IMG/VR virus record: IMGVR_UViG_3300050134_000018
Coordinates: 1-45,527 of that record
DNA from: a virus
Length of the DNA stretch: 45,527 nt
Strand: one strand, 5' to 3'
Shown here: positions 1,426 through 38,299 of the stretch, in pieces
Numbering within the stretch: the stretch's first letter is position 1
How the letters are laid out: each line of letters opens with the position of its first letter
The notes under the pieces: generated by a model
Told to the model about the DNA's origin: nothing
Database searches by the model: none
The model's input: only the letters and a program-made list of their open reading frames with translations
Translations under genes and position numbers: made by a program

Positions 1426-1549
1426 GCGGTCTGATCCTTGCGCCCTTGCGATATACGGGCCGTTCGCCAATTACAAGCGCCTTTTGTGCTTCAGCCGTTC
1501 GCCGTTTGAAGTTGGTCGGGTGAAAAGCGGGAGCGTCGATCTTATGCAT
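1412..1549 (-). CDS. Possible small basic protein, 45 aa
   Basis: A short frame runs from an ATG that overlaps the last eight bases of the DUF2800 nuclease gene to a TAG inside the start region of the HNH gene. It encodes a 45-residue, Lys/Arg-rich peptide beginning MHKIDAPAFHP. The tight overlaps at both ends match the spacing of its neighbours. The ribosome site is weak (GGA nine bases upstream) and there is no recognisable domain. It would fill the otherwise non-coding gap between the two genes if the HNH gene starts at 1425. Confidence 0.35.
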   Translation of the reverse strand: MHKIDAPAFHPTNFKRRTAEAQKALVIGERPVYRKGARIRPRAGQ

Positions 1550-2693
1550 CTGATGGGTCCAGTCCGAATTCCGTTACAGGCAGCGGCTTGCCTTCCTCCG
1601 ACCACTTAGCGAGCGACGGCGCACCGGGCGCCTGATCTATGAACGCTGCGTAGTCGGCGTATTTCACTGCCGGGTTTTTCTTCGCGATGCGCTCAAGGTC
1701 CGTCGGGGAGATGAGCGACTTTTTGTAGGCCGCATCCCCGAGGTCAGGCCCGAGCAGGCTTTCGACGAGCGCCGCGTCCGACCACTTGCGGTTGCCGCGC
1801 TTGCCTTCGATAAGTTTGTAGCCTGGAATAGCCGTGCCGCCCATTGCCAACTGGAGGGCGTAGGCGCGGGCGTCGCGCAGCCATGACTCTATGGCGTCCG
1901 CGCGATTCAGTATGGCCGCTATAGTCTCTACCGAAGCTGCCGTGTCTATAACCTCTATAGGGAACTCAGCTAGCATAGCCGCGTTGCGTGCGGGGCACCT
2001 CGCCCGGTACGGGCACCACTGGCACTGTTTGTCGCCGGGCGTGAGCGCCGCGCCCGGCAGCATCGCAGCCTGCCCAAGCACGGCGAACTTCGCTACCTCG
2101 GCGCGGATGTACGCAGGCGTCGTCTCCCACATGCGCGGCTCGCCGCGCTTGGGCTGCATGATCCACAGGCGCACCGTGTCGTAATCCGTACCGAACTCAT
2201 CAAGCATGTGCAGGGCGCCGGCGGCGTAGAGCATCAGCTGTCGGTTGTCTTCGGGCTCGACAAGCCCGTAGCCGAACTTGGCATCACAGACGTTAAGCGT
2301 TCGCGTATCCAGGTCACCAATGAGCGCGTCCGCGGTGCCGCCGGTATCGGGTACGCCCAGCAGTGCGGACATATCAAGGCGTTGCTCAAATAGACGAACG
2401 GCACCGGGTATCGCCCGCGCGCCCTGCAGGTACGCATTGACATGCTCAATATCCTCGCTGGTGAAGTTGCCGGCGAAGCCATCAGCCGTCCACGGCCTGC
2501 CTAGCTCGCTGTCGGCTGTCTTAGCCGGGTCTGCGTGCATCAAGCACCAGTAACTTAGCTCATGCTTCGCGGACCCGAGCGCGCTCGCCTCGTTGGGCAG
2601 GTTCGGGATGTCCTTGCACAGCTGTACGCTGCCAGGGCATCTTGACCACCTTTCCGCACTAGACGGAGAGAGCAGTGAGTGACTACCGGCCAT
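1542..2693 (-). CDS. DUF2800 / RecB-Cas4-like PD-(D/E)XK exonuclease
   Basis: A protein of about 383 residues resembling the DUF2800 family of phage nucleases. The N-terminus has the SAERWSRCPGS type motif seen in RecB/AddB-like nucleases. A central GGTADALIGD and CDAKFGYG segment supplies the acidic residue and the D-x-K part of the nuclease site. A QCQWCPYRARCPA cluster, with an earlier Cys, resembles the iron-sulfur anchor of Cas4/AddB nucleases. Its C-terminus TEFGLDPSDA resembles motifs in the SSB and primase. The start at 2693 is chosen because GGAGG lies ten bases upstream; a start at 2738 lacks support. It probably processes DNA ends with the SSB in recombination-dependent replication. 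Confidence 0.75.
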   Translation of the reverse strand: MAGSHSLLSPSSAERWSRCPGSVQLCKDIPNLPNEASALGSAKHELSYWCLMHADPAKTADSELGRPWTADGFAGNFTSEDIEHVNAYLQGARAIPGAVRLFEQRLDMSALLGVPDTGGTADALIGDLDTRTLNVCDAKFGYGLVEPEDNRQLMLYAAGALHMLDEFGTDYDTVRLWIMQPKRGEPRMWETTPAYIRAEVAKFAVLGQAAMLPGAALTPGDKQCQWCPYRARCPARNAAMLAEFPIEVIDTAASVETIAAILNRADAIESWLRDARAYALQLAMGGTAIPGYKLIEGKRGNRKWSDAALVESLLGPDLGDAAYKKSLISPTDLERIAKKNPAVKYADYAAFIDQAPGAPSLAKWSEEGKPLPVTEFGLDPSDA

Positions 2694-2799
2694 TCTCGGC
2701 GTTCCTCCAGAGTAGGTACAGCAGGAATGCGCACACAAGCGGCCACACGATTATCAGCACGAGGCTGAATCGGAAGGCGAGGATTAGAGCCTGGAGCAT
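2683..2799 (-). CDS. Small single-pass membrane protein, 38 aa
   Basis: A 38-residue frame encodes a peptide with one long hydrophobic segment (LVLIIVWPLVCAFLLYLLW) and a polar, charged tail. A strong AAGGAG site lies ten bases before the ATG. It overlaps the end of the upstream HNH gene by 16 bases and the start of the nuclease gene by 11 bases, so it sits naturally in the operon. I do not recognise a family. The size and topology match small phage membrane proteins of unknown role, such as superinfection-exclusion or lysis-timing peptides. Confidence 0.6.
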   Translation of the reverse strand: MLQALILAFRFSLVLIIVWPLVCAFLLYLLWRNAENGR

Positions 2800-3242
2800 G
2801 GTAGGCGGGCTCCTTGAACGTATGCTAGGGCGCGAGCTATGGACTCCGGCGTGTCACCCATCTGCCCCAGCGCTAAGTTGCAGTGATTACACAGCCAGCC
2901 GCGAAAGGCGCCGGTTTCGTGGCAGTGATCCAGCACCAACACCGTCTTTTTACCCCGTGGCGGTCTACCGCACAGTTCGCAATTGTCCGGACAGCATCTA
3001 GTCGGCGCCGGCAGCCCGGCATACTTACGCCGCCAAGCGCGCACAGTTTCTGAGTTCCGCTCGCGCCAGCGCGCTATAGCCGCGTACATCGCGGGGCGGT
3101 TCGCGTGGCGCCATGCCCGGTGGCGCGCTAGGTCCGCGGCGTATTGCTCTGGGCGCGTCTTGCGCTTTAGCACATAGGCGGCTTTAGAGCGAGCGCGTTT
3201 GCGCTCCGCGGCTTCTTCAACGGTAAAGCGTTTAGGGCACAT
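2784..3242 (-). CDS. HNH endonuclease, recombination endonuclease VII type (copy 2)
   Basis: A 152-residue protein with a long Arg/Ala-rich N-terminal helix region and a C-terminal endonuclease VII domain: CELC, LVLDHCHETGAFRGWLC, CNHC and GQMGDTPES. The zinc-binding CxxC pairs and the DHCH metal site are complete, so it looks active. It overlaps the small membrane protein gene downstream. I see no Shine-Dalgarno before the ATG. A TATCTA hexamer about four bases before the start could be a -10 element for a leaderless message, but this is weak. The arrangement suggests a mobile homing gene inserted in the replication operon. Confidence 0.8.
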   Translation of the reverse strand: MCPKRFTVEEAAERKRARSKAAYVLKRKTRPEQYAADLARHRAWRHANRPAMYAAIARWRERNSETVRAWRRKYAGLPAPTRCCPDNCELCGRPPRGKKTVLVLDHCHETGAFRGWLCNHCNLALGQMGDTPESIARALAYVQGARLPCSRL

Positions 3243-3791: not shown

Positions 3792-4082
3792 TTACAGGTC
3801 AGTTACTTGCGGCAGTTTCGCGGTGCCGTCGGTCGAACCTTGCCCCGGCGCAAGCGGCTTGTCAAGGCCGGGATTCAATGGCGTCTTTAGCGGCTGATAG
3901 GGCAGGTCAACCTCGACGCACTTCGTCGTAATGACGACGCCCGCGGGCAGCTTCGAACGTCCGAGCACACCCTCAATCCCGGCGGTGCACTGAGCCAGCG
4001 AGGGTGCGCTGCCGAGGATGCTCATATCGACGATGTGGCCGCCGGTGGCAGCAATGATGACTGCGACGAATATAGGGGTCAT
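3792..4082 (-). CDS. Hypothetical protein with N-terminal hydrophobic segment, 96 aa
   Basis: The protein starts MTPIFVAVIIAATGG, which could be a signal peptide or membrane anchor, followed by a periplasm-like soluble domain with two Cys (about residues 32 and 55) that could form a disulfide. The tail is Pro/Gly-rich. The start is fixed by an ATGA overlap with the gene upstream (4079-4351). I do not recognise a family. The predicted export and the paired Cys suggest action in the host envelope, as inference. Confidence 0.6.
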   Translation of the reverse strand: MTPIFVAVIIAATGGHIVDMSILGSAPSLAQCTAGIEGVLGRSKLPAGVVITTKCVEVDLPYQPLKTPLNPGLDKPLAPGQGSTDGTAKLPQVTDL

Positions 4083-4351
4083 TGGATAGTACCTGCAGGC
4101 TGGGGGTCGGCAAGGACGCCCGTCACTTGTGCCGGGTCGCCGCCGGATGCGCGAATGAAAACGCCCGCCGTAGCGCGGCAGGCGTTCATGAGGTCGTGGT
4201 TGGACATACCGGCGGGGCCGGTTACCGACACCACGTAGATTTTGCCGTCGCTCTTGAAGCACAGCGACACATGGTCCATCTCGGCACCCTCGGGCGACTC
4301 CAGGCGTTCGCCTGTAGTTTCGAGGCATTCCCAGTGTGTGAGGTGCGGCAT
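4079..4351 (-). CDS. Hypothetical small protein, 90 aa
   Basis: A 90-residue soluble protein without a recognisable domain. The middle reads as a beta hairpin (CFKSDGKIYVVSVTG) followed by a helix. Its stop overlaps the start of the next gene by four bases (ATGA), showing coupling. It lies in a run of short leftward genes of unknown function between the AT-hook protein and the gene at 4754-5407. Confidence 0.6.
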   Translation of the reverse strand: MPHLTHWECLETTGERLESPEGAEMDHVSLCFKSDGKIYVVSVTGPAGMSNHDLMNACRATAGVFIRASGGDPAQVTGVLADPQPAGTIQ

Positions 4352-4554: not shown

Positions 4555-4757
4555 AGTTCCGCTATGACCTCTTCGAGTAAGAACAGTTCGTTATCTAGCG
4601 TCCGAATAGCGTTCTGTGTCAAGCCATCCCCGATCCCGTCTGCGCGAAGTTCCAGCCGGCGACGCTCCGCCGCTATCTCGTCCCGATGCCGCCGCATGTG
4701 CCGCAGGAGCGTCTGCAACTGGATCGGGGACAGACTCAGGTCTATCGCGATGCTCAC
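4512..4757 (-). CDS. Hypothetical coiled-coil protein, 81 aa
   Basis: An 81-residue, highly charged and almost entirely helical protein. Leu residues in heptad-like spacing suggest two helices forming a hairpin or dimeric coiled coil. Its ATG overlaps the stop of the upstream gene (4754-5407) by four bases, so translation is coupled. I do not recognise the family. Confidence 0.6.
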   Translation of the reverse strand: MSIAIDLSLSPIQLQTLLRHMRRHRDEIAAERRRLELRADGIGDGLTQNAIRTLDNELFLLEEVIAELWKVYQAKFPQETQ

Positions 4758-5407
4758 GAGGAGAGCGCCCGCGCAACCTCGGCCTTGGACAGTATCTGCG
4801 TCCTGGCCGACTGGAAGCGCTTAACCGCCCGCGTCGTGGTAGCGCCGCCCGTGATGGCGCCGAGCTGATCCGTCAGCTGCGTCATCAGAAGCTCTAGCTC
4901 CTCGCCTGCGACACTCGGGGACTTATCCCCCAGTGCCAGTAGGTGCGACACCAGCGCCTTACTGGCGGCCTCTACGCGCGCCTTGAGCCGTGCCGGCGAG
5001 GGAGGTCGCGCCTTGTGCGGCACAACGAGCGATGACTTCGTAACCCGCTTGGTGACGAGCTTCGTTATGTCATTGCCCTTATGTCGCATCCACGACCGGA
5101 GCATGCTCGCCGCGGAGCGCGCGAAATTGCTTTTCTTGTTGATCTCCTTGGCTCGTCCAGGGATGCGCGGCGGAGTGGCGGCCTCTGCGGCCTTAAGCAC
5201 GGCCTCATAAAAGCCGACGTGCACCTTCTCTAGCGTGGGCAGCGGCTCGCCCTTTTCGAGCTTAAGTTGCGCCTTGGTCGTATCGACTAGCGCTCGCAGA
5301 TACGTTACGCGGCCCTCGCCCGTAACGTTGAGCGCCATGAAGTAGTCGCGTGCGAGCACTTCGATCTCAGAGGGAGTTGCAACGTAATTGAAAGTGAGAG
5401 TATCCAT
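4754..5407 (-). CDS. Hypothetical protein, 217 aa
   Basis: A 217-residue protein, mostly helical, with a basic central stretch (KEINKKSNFARSAASMLRS, then KRVTKSSLVVPHKARPPS) and a helical C-terminal third. The basic middle suggests contact with nucleic acid, but I see no named domain. The ATG at 5407 is chosen because GGAGA lies seven bases upstream; the frame is open further upstream without a better start. It is the first gene after a hairpin (5535-5557) that may separate it from the PEP-CTERM-like gene. Confidence 0.65.
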   Translation of the reverse strand: MDTLTFNYVATPSEIEVLARDYFMALNVTGEGRVTYLRALVDTTKAQLKLEKGEPLPTLEKVHVGFYEAVLKAAEAATPPRIPGRAKEINKKSNFARSAASMLRSWMRHKGNDITKLVTKRVTKSSLVVPHKARPPSPARLKARVEAASKALVSHLLALGDKSPSVAGEELELLMTQLTDQLGAITGGATTTRAVKRFQSARTQILSKAEVARALSS

Positions 5408-5534
5408 TTTCCATTCTCCATTTGCGTTTAGTGGTTCAGTGGTTCTATCGACGCTGTGTACGCTACCTAACATCAAACATGCCGTATGTGCGGTAAACCA
5501 CATAGCGTCGAATACCACTCTCCACAACGCAGAA

Positions 5535-5617: not shown

Positions 5618-6031
5618 TCAGCCAGCGCTGGCGCGCGCAAACCTCGTTACGATTATGACAACTACGCCCGTTAGCAGGATCAACGCGCCCCCAGGCTCCG
5701 GCACCGACTGCGGGCGCGCCGGTGCACCCTCGTGCGGCGTGCCGTAGGACTGAAGGTAAGGCACGTAGGGCGGCGCTGCGCCGTAACCCCCGCCCGGATA
5801 GAGGGCATAGCCGCCCGCGCCGCCATATCCCACGTCCGTAAGGCTCGGGGGATACAGTGCAGGCACGTCGGGCACCGCGGCGGTCACTGTGACTATCGGG
5901 ATATCGACTTCGCCGCACACGAGGCCGGGGTGCTCGAACGGGTGCACAATCCTGTGCGCCATGCGGTGAATGAGCGCGCCGAGCGTGTGATGCTTAGGCG
6001 GGGCGGGCGGGGAGCAATCGTATAGGCTCAT
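5618..6031 (-). CDS. Protein with C-terminal PEP-CTERM-like sorting signal, 137 aa
   Basis: The last 28 residues read SVPEPGG (109-115), a hydrophobic membrane segment (about 114-129) and a short Arg-containing tail (R130, R133). That is the three-part layout of PEP-CTERM signals, which exosortase enzymes recognise in the inner membrane of many Gram-negative bacteria with extracellular polysaccharide. The middle (about 65-100) is low-complexity Gly/Tyr/Pro. No N-terminal signal peptide is obvious, so export in the usual orientation is uncertain. The start overlaps the upstream small gene by four bases (ATGA), with GGGGGAG six bases upstream. Alternative: a plain tail-anchored membrane protein. 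Confidence 0.65.
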   Translation of the reverse strand: MSLYDCSPPAPPKHHTLGALIHRMAHRIVHPFEHPGLVCGEVDIPIVTVTAAVPDVPALYPPSLTDVGYGGAGGYALYPGGGYGAAPPYVPYLQSYGTPHEGAPARPQSVPEPGGALILLTGVVVIIVTRFARASAG

Positions 6032-6153
6032 CGCACTCTCCCCCGCTCACATACCGATGAGTGGCACGCGATTCGCGGCGACCCGAGCGGGATAACCGGG
6101 CTCGCGAATCCCGGCCAGTGAAGGTGCAGCAGTAAAACGGCGGTTAAGATCAT
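6028..6153 (-). CDS. Small protein with signal-like N-terminus, 41 aa
   Basis: A 41-residue frame begins MILTAVLLLHLH and continues PGFASP, which resembles a short secretion signal. A clear GGAG site lies nine bases before the ATG, and both ends overlap neighbours in ATGA fashion. The sequence at about 6070-6110 also contains an inverted repeat (GATTCGCG with CGCGAATC), so part of the region could act as RNA structure instead. No family is recognised. Confidence 0.5.
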   Translation of the reverse strand: MILTAVLLLHLHWPGFASPVIPLGSPRIACHSSVCERGRVR

Positions 6154-6269
6154 GGCAGTAAACTCCATTTCGGTGAGGTGCGCATCACCCGGATAGGGTC
6201 AGCGAGGAACGCGTGCATGTATAGGCGCAGTGCACGCGCGGCCATCGTAACATCGGCGCGAATGTTCAT
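6150..6269 (-). CDS. Small hypothetical protein, 39 aa
   Basis: A 39-residue basic, helical peptide. Its ATG overlaps the stop of the pentapeptide-repeat gene (TAATG) and is preceded by AAGGAG at five bases. Its stop overlaps the next start (ATGA). The strong ribosome site and the unbroken chain of overlaps support translation. Function unknown. Confidence 0.5.
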   Translation of the reverse strand: MNIRADVTMAARALRLYMHAFLADPIRVMRTSPKWSLLP

Positions 6270-6925
6270 TAGTACTCCTTCGCCTCCTGGCGCGTGATGA
6301 AAAAATGAATGCCGTGCGAACACTCCACACGCGGGTCGGGATCGTACATGTCCGGCGTGACAAGGCCGCTACAGGGATACCGGAATCCGCCGTAAGCCAG
6401 CCGGTTAAGCGCGCCTTCTACCTTCTGCACGTAGGCGAACTCAGCGCGGCACTTGCGTGAGCCGTAGGCGTTCACGCGCTTCGCATCCGCCGGTATAAGC
6501 AGCGTGACTATAGTGTCGCCTACCTTCTTAAACCCGATAAACGCGCCGGCCTCAGGACATACCTGGAATTGCGCTAACCCTACCGCGTCGCGCAGGTCCG
6601 CGTCGCGCAGGTCCGCGCCGCGCAGGTCCGCGCCGCGCAGGGTAGCGCAGCGCAGGTCCGCGCCGTGCAAGTTCGCGTAGTACAGGGCCGCGACGCTCAG
6701 GTCCGCGACGCGCAGGTTCGCGTCGCGCAGCTCCGCGCCGCGCAGGTTCGCGCCGCGCAGGTTCGCGCCGCTCAGGTTCGCGCCGCTCAGGTTCGTGCCG
6801 TCCAGGTTCGCGCCGTACAGGTTCGCGCCGCCCAGGTTCGCGCTCACCAGGTTCGCGCTCGCCAGGTCCGCGCCGCGCAGGTCTGCGATTTCGCGCTCGG
6901 TGCCGTCAAGGAATTTAATCAGCAC
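6269..6925 (-). CDS. Pentapeptide-repeat protein
   Basis: About twenty tandem A(D/N)LxX pentapeptides (ADLRG, ANLSG, ANLRG and variants) fill the first half and should fold as a right-handed beta helix. The C-terminal half (about 100 residues) ends in CSHGIHFFITRQEAKEY, a tail that I recall from other phage pentapeptide-repeat proteins. Members of this superfamily can mimic DNA and inhibit gyrase, but most phage versions have no known role. I place the start at the GTG at 6925, seven bases after GGGAG; a start at 6994 has only a weak site. The GTG overlaps the stop of a 37-residue frame upstream, consistent with coupling. Confidence 0.8.
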   Translation of the reverse strand: MLIKFLDGTEREIADLRGADLASANLVSANLGGANLYGANLDGTNLSGANLSGANLRGANLRGAELRDANLRVADLSVAALYYANLHGADLRCATLRGADLRGADLRDADLRDAVGLAQFQVCPEAGAFIGFKKVGDTIVTLLIPADAKRVNAYGSRKCRAEFAYVQKVEGALNRLAYGGFRYPCSGLVTPDMYDPDPRVECSHGIHFFITRQEAKEY

Positions 6926-7032
6926 GTTGGTACTCCCGTTCGCCGCGTGTTGGCGAACTGATTGTCGTGACTGCCGCGCCAGGGGCGGCGCCATAGCAGC
7001 CTATTAAGCCAGCGAGTAAGTGAGCGGTTCAT
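6919..7032 (-). CDS. Small basic protein, 37 aa
   Basis: A 37-residue Arg/Trp-rich peptide (MNRSLTRWLNRLLWRRPWRG...). AGGAG lies 11 bases before the ATG. Its TGA overlaps the GTG start of the pentapeptide-repeat gene. The amphipathic, Trp/Arg-rich sequence resembles membrane-active or nucleic-acid-binding peptides, but no family is recognised. Confidence 0.45.
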   Translation of the reverse strand: MNRSLTRWLNRLLWRRPWRGSHDNQFANTRRTGVPTC

Positions 7033-9420: not shown

Positions 9421-9669
9421 ATGAAGAGTAACGATCAAGCGGTGCGCGATATGTACGCGCTGGCCAAAGCGCACCCGGAAAACTGGCCTACCTACTACCG
9501 GATGCAGGGCGCCGCGTGGCGCAAGGCGAACCCCGACCGCGCGCGGGAGATGGCCCGCGATAAGCAGCGCCGGTACCGTGCGCGGCAGAAGGCGCGCATG
9601 GCGGAACTCGAGGCGCGCGTCGCTGCGCTGGACGCCGGGGTCAACGACTTGCTAGGCTCGGCGCCATGA
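9421..9669 (+). CDS. Small basic protein with bZIP-like helix; first rightward gene
   Basis: An 82-residue protein. Residues 34-59 are very basic (RR-Y-R-A-R-Q-K-A-R). Directly after, M60, L63, V67, L70, V74 and L77 fall in a-d heptad order, giving a basic-region plus zipper layout like a very short bZIP. The end VNDLLGSAP resembles the DLMG tail of other proteins here. GGAGG lies six bases before the ATG. It is the first gene next to the repeat array, so it may bind that array, or be a terminase-associated DNA-binding protein. The basic helix also resembles the N-terminus of endonuclease VII-type proteins. No firm family assignment. Confidence 0.65.
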   Translation: MKSNDQAVRDMYALAKAHPENWPTYYRMQGAAWRKANPDRAREMARDKQRRYRARQKARMAELEARVAALDAGVNDLLGSAP

Positions 9670-10073
9670 ACTCACACCTTGCGGTCGCGGCTAACGGAGT
9701 CACGCTTTCTTCCGAGGAGCGGATAAGCCGCTCGCTCGACGGCACGCTGCCGGCCCACATTAAACCGCTCTCCACGGCCAAGATCGATGCTGTGTCGCGC
9801 GCCCGGTGCCGCCGCGCGTGGACGGAGCTTCAGCAGGGGAATATCGAGTACGTCGAGGCCTGGCTGCACCAGGTGGCGGAAGGCATCACCGACCCCGACA
9901 CCGGCCAGCGGATCACGAACCCGAACCCGCGCGAGGCCATTCTGCTTTTCATTGAGATGGCGAAGTTCACCACCCCGCAGGTCAAGGCCGTGGCGATTGA
10001 GGTGAACGATGGCAAGAGCATCAGGAAGATGAGCTTCGCGGAGCTGCAGGCGTCCGTCGTTGACGAGCAGTAA
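9666..10073 (+). CDS. Probable terminase small subunit
   Basis: A 135-residue protein whose end (NPNPREAILLFIEMAKFTTPQVKAV, written in part) resembles the C-terminal helix of phage small terminases, which often read 'P..A..L.L.L.EY..PK'. The middle contains a helical DNA-binding-like part. Small terminase recognises phage DNA and recruits the large subunit. The ATG overlaps the upstream stop by four bases. It lies 1.1 kb ahead of the large terminase, with three genes between. I cannot confirm the helix-turn-helix by eye. Confidence 0.5.
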   Translation: MNSHLAVAANGVTLSSEERISRSLDGTLPAHIKPLSTAKIDAVSRARCRRAWTELQQGNIEYVEAWLHQVAEGITDPDTGQRITNPNPREAILLFIEMAKFTTPQVKAVAIEVNDGKSIRKMSFAELQASVVDEQ

Positions 10074-36081: not shown

Positions 36082-37217
36082 CAAGCCTCCGGGATAAAGA
36101 CGCCGCGCGCGATCTCGCCGCGGGTTCGTGAGTAGGTCATCGAGGTAGCCTGCCGCTTAGACAGCCAACCTCCGCGCGCGGCGTAGGCGTCAGGCGCGGC
36201 TAGCGTCGGGTGCTGCACGATTTTGCAGCCCGATCGTTCTTCTTCCTTGACGTGGTGCTTGTGGCCGGTGTGAATGTAGACATACTCGCAGCGACCCCAC
36301 TGAGGTCTGAATTGAGCCGCAAATAGTTCGCCCAGGCTAGTAAGTTTGGCGAGATGCCCGTGGTAGAACCCGAGGAGCGTTTTACCATGCTCGTACACCG
36401 TGTAGGGGTTGGGGGACTGATCCACCTCGACGCGCACGTTCTTCTCGTAGAGCTGGGCCAGCATGACTCGCAGCCATACCGAGCCTGCCGGGTCGTGGTT
36501 GCCTTCCTTCATCTGCACCACGACGCGCGAGTGCTTGGCGAGTGCGTGCTCTATGACGCGGCGCAGGATGCGCACAGCCACCTCTACCATCTTCTGAAAG
36601 CGCGAGTCCGCATCCAGCACGTGGTGATTAGTCGGCGTGAGAGGCTGCAGCGAATCGAAGTGCAGGAAGTCGCCCAGCTGATTGATGACCCCCACTGCGG
36701 ACTCAGGCGCGGCGTCGATCATGCGGCACAGCGTCTTGGTGAGGCACTCCTCCGCGATACCGAGGTCCCACGCCTCTCCGGTCTCGCGGCTCCATGCCAG
36801 CATGCCGACGTGGCAGTCGGTAAGTGTGTACAGGGTGCACAGGTCCGCGTCGCGCTGCTTCGTCAGAAGCTTCACCGGCGGGATAGGCTTCAGCTTCCCG
36901 CACAGTGCCCTGAGCGCGGCCTCCTGCTGCGCGGCCAGCGTCTCCGCGTCGATGTTCGTCTTGATCCATTGGAGCTTGGTGTTGCCCTGCTCGTCCACCA
37001 GGGTAGAGGTGCCCTTGACGTGGTAGCCCTCGGGCGCGCCCTTGAGAGGCTCTATGGGCGGCAGATCCCCGGCGTCCTTCATCTCGCGCATCATGCGTTG
37101 GAAAGGCTCACCGGTGCGAGGAGTCCTGAGGCGTCTGGCTATCTCCGCGCCCGACGCGCCCTCGGCATGCCACTTGGCAACTTGAACGCGGTCGAACTCT
37201 CTGCGCGGATAGCCCAT
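36081..37217 (-). CDS. HTH-metallophosphoesterase
   Basis: A 378-residue protein. An N-terminal helix-turn-helix-like part (VQVAKWHAEGASGAEIARRL) is followed by a calcineurin-like phosphoesterase: DCHVG (134-138), GDFLH (about 182-186), GNHDP (239-243), YHGH (285-288) and GHKHH (318-322). These Asp, Asn and His residues form the two-metal centre. Family members cleave phosphodiesters or nucleic acids. It lies between spanins and a membrane protein. The ATG at 37217 overlaps the upstream stop (TAATG); an ATG at 37226 has no workable spacing. Confidence 0.75.
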   Translation of the reverse strand: MGYPRREFDRVQVAKWHAEGASGAEIARRLRTPRTGEPFQRMMREMKDAGDLPPIEPLKGAPEGYHVKGTSTLVDEQGNTKLQWIKTNIDAETLAAQQEAALRALCGKLKPIPPVKLLTKQRDADLCTLYTLTDCHVGMLAWSRETGEAWDLGIAEECLTKTLCRMIDAAPESAVGVINQLGDFLHFDSLQPLTPTNHHVLDADSRFQKMVEVAVRILRRVIEHALAKHSRVVVQMKEGNHDPAGSVWLRVMLAQLYEKNVRVEVDQSPNPYTVYEHGKTLLGFYHGHLAKLTSLGELFAAQFRPQWGRCEYVYIHTGHKHHVKEEERSGCKIVQHPTLAAPDAYAARGGWLSKRQATSMTYSRTRGEIARGVFIPEA

Positions 37218-37681
37218 TAGCGGCATTCCTTCAGCACAAACTGCTGAAGCGCTACCAGCGTATCCGCATCGTGACTAGCGGCTTCGGCAAGGCCTTGGAC
37301 AGCGTCGCTAAAGCTGTCGGGCTTTCCGGCGGCAGCATCAGGGCCGGCGGAGGTTGCACTTTCTCCGGGCACGGCAAGGCTACGGCTACGGGCAGCTTCG
37401 TACTGGCGCACCCGCTCAGCAAGGCCAGCAGTGTTAGCGTTAGAAACGGTAAGCGATTTCGCATAGGAGGTCTCTATGGTCTGGAGGTTGTCGGCATCAG
37501 TCTTGGCCTGCGCGGCGAGCTTCGCGGCGTTGGCTGCTTCTAACTTCGCGGTAGTCTTGGTGACAGCGGCGTCCACCTTTTGCTCCCCGTCCATTATGAG
37601 CGTGTGCCGGTACCAGAAGAAGCCGGCTACGAGTGTGATACTCAGGACGCCGAGTGCGTATATCTTCACGGTGCTAAACAC
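37217..37681 (-). CDS. Rz: Inner-membrane spanin (Rz-like)
   Basis: A 154-residue protein with an N-terminal membrane segment (about 6-23) and a long charged coiled-coil domain (about 30-140), the layout of i-spanins. Together with the o-spanin encoded inside this gene in another frame it should fuse inner and outer membranes at lysis. It begins at a GTG overlapping the small membrane protein gene by eight bases. Confidence 0.75.
   Translation of the reverse strand: MFSTVKIYALGVLSITLVAGFFWYRHTLIMDGEQKVDAAVTKTTAKLEAANAAKLAAQAKTDADNLQTIETSYAKSLTVSNANTAGLAERVRQYEAARSRSLAVPGESATSAGPDAAAGKPDSFSDAVQGLAEAASHDADTLVALQQFVLKECR
37252..37464 (-). CDS. Rz1: Outer-membrane spanin (Rz1-like lipoprotein), embedded
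   Basis: A 70-residue protein read in a different frame inside the i-spanin gene. It starts MRNRLPFLTLTLLALLSGC: basic start, hydrophobic core and LSGC lipobox. The rest is Pro-rich (VQPPPALMLPP), as usual for Rz1. It would be anchored in the outer membrane and bind the i-spanin in the periplasm. Confidence 0.75.
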   Translation of the reverse strand: MRNRLPFLTLTLLALLSGCASTKLPVAVALPCPEKVQPPPALMLPPESPTALATLSKALPKPLVTMRIRW

Positions 37682-37832
37682 GGTCCGGCTCCTTACTGTC
37701 CTTGTAGTTAATAAAGTGGTAAGCCGCGGTCATAGTGGCACACAGTCCGCACCACAGGCCGAACGTGCCGGACGAGGGGTACTTGAACATGAACACGGTG
37801 CCCGCGCCCCACGAGCCGGCGAGCGTTGCCAT
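37674..37832 (-). CDS. Holin candidate, 52 aa
   Basis: A 52-residue protein with two hydrophobic stretches (about 3-15 and 22-40) and a charged end (NYKDSKEPDRV). The ATG overlaps the lysozyme stop (TAATG), and its stop overlaps the i-spanin start. Its place between lysozyme and spanins makes it the best holin candidate. No family pattern is clear. Confidence 0.55.
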   Translation of the reverse strand: MATLAGSWGAGTVFMFKYPSSGTFGLWCGLCATMTAAYHFINYKDSKEPDRV

Positions 37833-38299
37833 TATGAAGCAGTCGCGGAGGTCGCATCCGGGTACTGACCGGAGCCGATCATAGTAGCTAGCCGCGATAC
37901 CCTGCTGAAGCCTACTTGCGCTATCCATTCCGGTGAACGCAGTAGGTGGAGCTGTGCGTTCGGCCAGTCCTGGGCTTGGATTGACTGCCGTGTCAGGGGA
38001 AACTGGGTCTGCCAATTGTGTACTCCGAGGTTGAATACGCACTCTACTACCGCATCTCTGCGGGCGGGCGTGTCCAGCGAACCCCATTCGGGGAGGTGCA
38101 CGGCGTAGGCCGTGGCGCTGTCGGCGTCGTCCTCAAGCCAGGTATCGGCTTGCGCCTCGTCGATTACCTGCCCGACGTACACGTCAGGCCCTGTGTGGCC
38201 GTAGCCGTTGGTGGGAACGTCGCCCGGCCGCTGATACCCGACGAGGCTTAGGCCCTCAGCTGCCTTCAGGGCAGCACGTAACTGCGGCGATACGAGCAA
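37832..38299 (-). CDS. Endolysin, GH24 lysozyme-like
   Basis: A 155-residue protein with AAEGLSLVGYQRPGDVPTNG followed by YGHT, the P22/T4-type lysozyme signature with Glu15 as acid. The second catalytic residue, Asp at Glu+9 in T4, is Arg24 here; Thr30 is kept, and Asp27 lies nearby. It has no export signal, so it needs a holin. It starts at a TTG right after the GAGGAATAG end of the upstream gene, which is also its ribosome site. Later segments (VVECVFNLG and W..FPLTRQSI) agree with GH24. Confidence 0.75.
   Translation of the reverse strand: MLVSPQLRAALKAAEGLSLVGYQRPGDVPTNGYGHTGPDVYVGQVIDEAQADTWLEDDADSATAYAVHLPEWGSLDTPARRDAVVECVFNLGVHNWQTQFPLTRQSIQAQDWPNAQLHLLRSPEWIAQVGFSRVSRLATMIGSGQYPDATSATAS

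Follow-up and report, generated by a model that had tools for sequence, protein, structure and literature searches.

A divergent PEP-CTERM-like tail in a phage early gene is related to the tail of a PEP-CTERM protein of sister phages

Exosortase-dependent surface sorting is a poorly understood process of biofilm- and floc-forming bacteria, and the function of most exosortase substrates is unknown. In the PEP-CTERM/exosortase (EpsH) system (TIGR02595, PF07589; Haft et al., 2006, PMC1569441), the sorting tail consists of Pro-Glu-Pro, a hydrophobic helix and a basic C-terminal end, and the same order is found in the phage tails described here. Most PEP-CTERM proteins were reported to have a signal peptide (about 97% after re-analysis), and phage are not mentioned in that work (Haft et al., 2006, PMC1569441). 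In hot-spring virus contigs, 13 TIGR03118 proteins with a putative exosortase interaction domain have been noted as acquired cellular genes (PMC11003980). These are likewise PEP-CTERM-like proteins in viral contigs, and the passage concerned mentions them briefly and proposes no function for them. Because the class was glimpsed in that passage of a 2024 article (PMC11003980), its first sight is not claimed here; beyond this passing mention, no study of phage PEP-CTERM proteins was found in the open full-text literature, that is, outside subscription papers and preprints.

The window, a 45.5-kb IMG/VR virus record analysed over its whole length, contains on its minus strand an ORF of 137 amino acids (5618-6031) that starts with ATG and ends with the residues QSVPEPGGALILLTGVVVIIVTRFARASAG, its C-terminus reading ...HEGAPARPQSVPEPGGALILLTGVVVIIVTRFARASAG. 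The GC content by codon position (0.71/0.54/0.76) resembles that of other window genes, and a Shine-Dalgarno-like GGGGGAG can be read directly at 6038-6044(-), 5' of the ATG at 6031. A sequence-only reading of this DNA had proposed a sorting signal made of VPEP, a hydrophobic segment and an Arg-containing end, and all three elements are indeed present, in the order VPEP - GGALILLTGVVVIIV - TRFARASAG, with two Arg after the hydrophobic stretch. The near-invariant Pro-Glu-Pro lies in a VPEP placed 24 residues from the protein end, the helix that follows it directly reaches a 14-residue hydropathy maximum of 3.0, and the basic end has two Arg only, compared with four Arg and one Lys in the sister phage L003 introduced below. 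The interval first given for the tail, 5618-5697, begins within the Glu codon; the tail itself is real and extends from the V of VPEP to the stop codon, at 5618-5704(-). The low-complexity Gly/Tyr/Pro middle that had been described is seen in the translation, and the earlier remark that a clear N-terminal signal is missing agrees with a signal-peptide heuristic, which found no signal peptide from any in-frame start.

When the window ORF was compared with curated models, TIGR02595 gave 12.9 bits, under its cut-off of 16 (E 0.15 over 18,950 NCBIfam models), and a Pfam search gave no match, PF07589 included. Judged formally, the window copy thus falls outside PEP-CTERM, and the NCBIfam model alone would be modest evidence for the nature of the tail. 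In a search with TIGR02595 over the whole window at E 0.001 no match was obtained and control genomes were equally blank, so that absence is not implied. A tail HMM constructed from PEP-CTERM tails of other phages gave the window ORF 5.6 bits, less than the top scores obtained from shuffled windows, and the ORF was not the top-scoring one of the window; this HMM is biased against other tails because the DNA pattern used to pick its training tails requires spacing of the LxGxG type. Among the ORFs of 300 Markov-shuffled windows, the combination of VPEP, hydrophobic segment and basic C-terminus occurred once in 372,900, and as ORFs counted in this way number 1,014 in the window, about 0.003 tails would be expected by chance.

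A search with the window TerL retrieved five IMG/VR contigs encoding TerL proteins 69-81% identical to it, and two of these, L003 and L005 (TerL 79-80% identical), include the early region. In their early gene cluster both encode an 88-aa protein, MTRLVYGAALVLALILFTVWAMPAEARECSDEPNIKLKPQDCEYVYLPPRHEGPVERPVPTQSVPEPASLLMLGSGVAAVLAARRRRK (L003, 1887-2153; L005, 1711-1977), that passes TIGR02595 (25.9 bits vs a cut-off of 16) as well as PF07589 (30.6 bits vs a cut-off of 20.7) and for whose start, MTRLVYGAALVLALILFTVWAMPAEA, a signal peptide is predicted by the heuristic. Its architecture thus comprises a predicted Sec signal peptide, a short Pro-rich body, VPEP, a transmembrane helix and an Arg cluster. 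A single base of 267 separates the two gene copies, and the aligned parts of the contigs share 96-99.9% identity; L003 and L005 are therefore counted as one lineage. The proposed check with PEP-CTERM models thus had a divided outcome, the window ORF lying under both cut-offs and its L003/L005 homologue over both.

When the 88-aa protein was compared with the window in six frames, its top match was the ORF at 5618-6031, the runner-up reaching 22.7 bits. The homologous stretch, HEGAPARPQSVPEP...RFAR at 5633-5734(-), matches the last 37 residues of the 88-aa protein (tblastn, 32 bits, E 4e-5) and aligns as HEGAPARP---QSVPEPGGALILLTGVVVIIVTRFAR, with 46% identity over 37 columns; in none of 300 Markov windows did the same query reach 32 bits. 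Mere convergence on the motif is disfavoured because the match covers residues upstream of the sorting signal (HEG...RP...QSVPEP). The body of the window ORF has nothing in common with that of the L003 protein. Both genes are held by a leftward cluster that also encodes an exonuclease and the 144-aa and 90-aa proteins, at different places within the cluster. As far as sequence comparison reaches, the relatives in L003 and L005 would settle the ancestry of the window tail. The idea that a phage encodes an exosortase target is thus supported for the lineage, where the L003/L005 protein is above both cut-offs and has a predicted signal peptide, but is uncertain for the window copy.

Further relatives were sought by several routes. 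No homologue of the whole window ORF was obtained by tblastn in INPHARED phages and no close one in IMG/VR, scans with the genes neighbouring the ORF gave no homologues of it, and more distant relatives collected by their exonuclease or polymerase had no further gene with a PEP-CTERM tail. A tblastn search of phages and plasmids with the bare tail gave no match and is uninformative, the plasmid positive control having been blank as well, probably through masking.

Upstream of the 137-aa ORF lies a 46-aa ORF (6028-6168, minus strand) with a hydrophobic N-terminus, MEFTAMILTAVLLLHLHWPGFASPV..., and no PHROG match. Its stop codon overlaps the start of the 137-aa ORF (ATGA), which is read in the -1 frame with respect to the 46-aa ORF; both frames are open over about 19 bases with a run of five G inside. 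It fails the signal-peptide heuristic, being without a basic n-region, and it may be a separate coupled gene, the remnant of a lost signal peptide, or joined to the 137-aa ORF by frameshifting; no relatives bridging the two ORFs were found. On the other side, the downstream neighbour (4754-5527, minus strand, 257 aa) belongs to no family according to its translation and a profile search. The same leftward early cluster contains the exonuclease at 1542-2738(-) (phrog_69, 4.4e-81), just upstream of whose homologue the L003/L005 PEP-CTERM gene is located, and, upstream of the 137-aa ORF, a 241-aa pentapeptide-repeat protein at 6269-6994(-), with repeats read in the translation and PHROG matches to unnamed families. 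Pentapeptide-repeat proteins can mimic DNA. An Endonuclease VII gene is found in the window between the exonuclease and the 144-aa gene (2784-3242, minus strand) and in L003 just upstream of the terminase (9634-10002, plus strand); gene swapping between slots is indicated since the early slot of the window Endonuclease VII holds the PEP-CTERM gene in L003. Two further window ORFs, 3792-4328(-) and 4079-4351(-), overlap by about 250 bases on the same strand in different frames, and the start of the first, of 178 aa, is probably wrong because the second, of 90 aa, has a homologue in L003/L005. No tRNA genes were found in the window.

These observations bear on whether the window copy still works. 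It is possible, though in our judgement doubtful, that it is the vestige of a decaying PEP-CTERM gene whose signal peptide and body were replaced by recombination, leaving the tail as a membrane segment or idle. This would agree with the lack of an in-frame signal peptide, with the loss of the Gly pattern and of part of the Arg cluster and the scores below the cut-offs, with a body unlike that of L003, and with a hydrophobic ORF that overlaps the start in a different frame, which could be expected of a broken gene. However, the codon composition is gene-like, the Shine-Dalgarno run is good, VPEP and the hydrophobic segment are intact and the frame is free of stop codons. Our belief about the window copy is divided: it may be a divergent member that still works, or a vestige.

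The second alternative, an unrelated protein in which a C-terminal transmembrane segment happens to follow VPEP, could appeal to the sub-threshold TIGR02595 and Pfam results and to the score of the ORF with the phage tail HMM, which did not place it first in the window. It is unlikely in view of the scarcity of such tails in shuffled DNA and of the match to a bona fide PEP-CTERM protein of a sister phage, which continues upstream of the motif, is the best of the window and comes from the same gene cluster.

In order to see how far such genes extend, IMG/VR was scanned with a DNA pattern for VPEPxxLxxLGxG, with nothing required after the motif or at the N-terminus. At least 120 stretches were obtained, with 80 loci among the matches listed, and the contig of L003 is itself one of the matches. 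Also among the matches listed, 78 of 82 belonged to ORFs that stop 18-34 residues further on, after a hydrophobic stretch and basic residues, all 54 aligned members, the L003 protein included, matched PF07589 at E 0.01 or better, and a signal-peptide-like start was detected in 68 of the 69 N-terminally complete members when any start codon was allowed. For control ORFs of similar size from the same loci, the corresponding figure was 35 of 110 with a free start and 7 of 110 at the called start. Dozens of the records numbered L034 to L113 encode proteins with a signal peptide and a PEP-CTERM tail, and families of 35 and 10 members recur among the matches listed.

Many of the contigs with PEP-CTERM genes measure about 40 kb, and Terminase_6N was over its cut-off in 12 of the 33 records tested among the matches listed, 11 of them besides that of L003. 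In L100 and L063 the PEP-CTERM gene has the terminase and portal genes on its two sides, in the order TerL, PEP-CTERM, portal in the former and portal, PEP-CTERM, TerL in the latter. In L092 it is flanked by genes for DNA ejection and Erf proteins, and a phage DNA polymerase is near it in L048 and L113. Since phage genes surround them, the PEP-CTERM genes of these five records and of L044 are considered phage-encoded and not part of a host flank. A NusG/RfaH-like transcription antiterminator lies about 2 kb or less from the PEP-CTERM gene in L044 (8336-8911, minus strand, phrog_6386) and in L072 (5251-5829, plus strand, read by eye), and ORFs read by eye as right-handed, pectate-lyase-like beta-helices are near it in L036 (6829-7989, minus strand) and L057 (4055-5137, minus strand). 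No PHROGs family covers these PEP-CTERM proteins, and an exosortase over the cut-off was found in 0 of 34 phage records tested.

In the largest of the phage PEP-CTERM families, the median pairwise dN/dS was 0.24 for the body and 0.19 for the tail (81 non-independent pairs), and these values argue for purifying selection on both parts. An AlphaFold model of the L100 protein is beta-rich (pLDDT 82.6), and Foldseek detected no significant match for it in PDB or BFVD. For the model of the L044 family (pLDDT 75.7), carbohydrate-binding modules with a beta-sandwich fold, together with a Bdellovibrio protein, came up repeatedly as weak matches (best E 2.5e-5, with TM-scores reaching about 0.48), which hints that the body in this family, found in phages other than that of the window, might bind polysaccharide. 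Phage-encoded exosortase substrates thus look real and widespread, and the window copy looks like a divergent, possibly impaired member. On balance we lean slightly towards the general view that phages of Gram-negative environmental bacteria commonly encode exosortase substrates, exported proteins that the host exosortase would mount on the surface or exopolysaccharide of the infected cell in the course of infection or lysogeny, some of them with a beta-sandwich resembling carbohydrate-binding modules, and that the window gene would be a rearranged member of this class.

The same class of proteins weighs on a third alternative, also raised in the sequence-only reading, that the tail occupies the host exosortase as a decoy or inhibitor and so blocks the display of host surface proteins. 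Such a tail would bind where host substrates bind, and an altered tail without a normal body would fit, but the PEP would still have to reach the periplasmic face, which is hard without a signal peptide, and the large, selected, secreted bodies of the other phage PEP-CTERM proteins fit cargo better; we regard this reading as very improbable. Least probable of all is a lysis protein, spanin or holin, with a membrane segment resembling PEP-CTERM: the protein is small with one transmembrane segment and small membrane ORFs adjoin the PEP-CTERM gene in L003, yet the window ORF lies in an early recombination and DNA-metabolism cluster, the sister protein is above the PEP-CTERM cut-offs, and the endolysin and Rz-like spanin genes recognized by profile search are located away from it at 37217-38299(-), for which reason the spanin/holin reading was rejected.

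The host was approached through TerL. Among cellular assemblies, the closest TerL has 53% identity and comes from a contig of 4.3 kb in an Acidobacteriaceae MAG, where neither exosortase nor PEP-CTERM proteins were detected and where that contig may be a binning error. As this TerL occurs in only 1 of 399 Terriglobia genomes, Acidobacteriaceae were rejected as a proven host. The exosortase picture differs among candidate host MAGs, and named phages with a related TerL (42-43%) infect cyanobacteria. A comparison of the L063-type protein body with six candidate host genomes, run as a search without a positive control, gave no match.

To return to the reading we prefer, for which we hold the chances to be about even, the window gene is one of a lineage of PEP-CTERM surface proteins encoded by phages, which would be exported, processed by the host exosortase and displayed on the infected cell. 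For the L003 type, the simplest reading is that the host takes the protein through the route usual for PEP-CTERM proteins. Expression from the leftward gene cluster would be early, export would follow, and the tail would hold the protein in the inner membrane with the Arg cluster inside. The host exosortase would then recognize the PEP, cut, and pass the protein to the cell surface or exopolysaccharide, where it may alter the surface of the infected cell, most plausibly limiting the adsorption of further phages. Such a limitation of superinfection is our conjecture as to function. The position of the L003-type gene in the early cluster points to a role while the host is being taken over, not in the virion; one role for all phage PEP-CTERM genes is not implied, because in other phages the gene is among late genes. 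The window phage would have kept the tail on a different body and let it diverge below the model cut-offs, and its copy, with no in-frame signal peptide, may be helped by the overlapping upstream ORF or be partly impaired. For a protein that lacks a signal peptide, as this copy does, the positive-inside rule gives no reason to expect the body outside.

The results add a PEP-CTERM class that is absent from PHROGs and suggest that phages often use the surface-sorting machinery of the host. If phages widely carry exosortase substrates, this pathway would be one that they use to rebuild the host surface; phage PEP-CTERM proteins would then be small natural tools for studying exosortase and would suggest surface-based phage competition in environmental bacteria.

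Compared with the PEP-CTERM/exosortase (EpsH) system, the sister phages agree also in the signal peptide and in the scores with curated models, whereas the phage system differs in that the substrate is phage-encoded, no exosortase is present in the phage records tested, and the window copy is sub-cut-off and without a signal peptide. Sortase with LPXTG and myxosortase with MYXO-CTERM follow the same logic of motif, helix and basic end, although motif and enzyme differ, and the L003 protein scored 15.1 bits with the MYXO-CTERM model, under the cut-off of 20. The known phage surface and superinfection-exclusion proteins have, to our knowledge, lipoprotein or ordinary membrane anchors and not an exosortase tail. 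They share with the proteins described here the role proposed for the latter, that of an exported phage protein that would change the surface of the infected cell.
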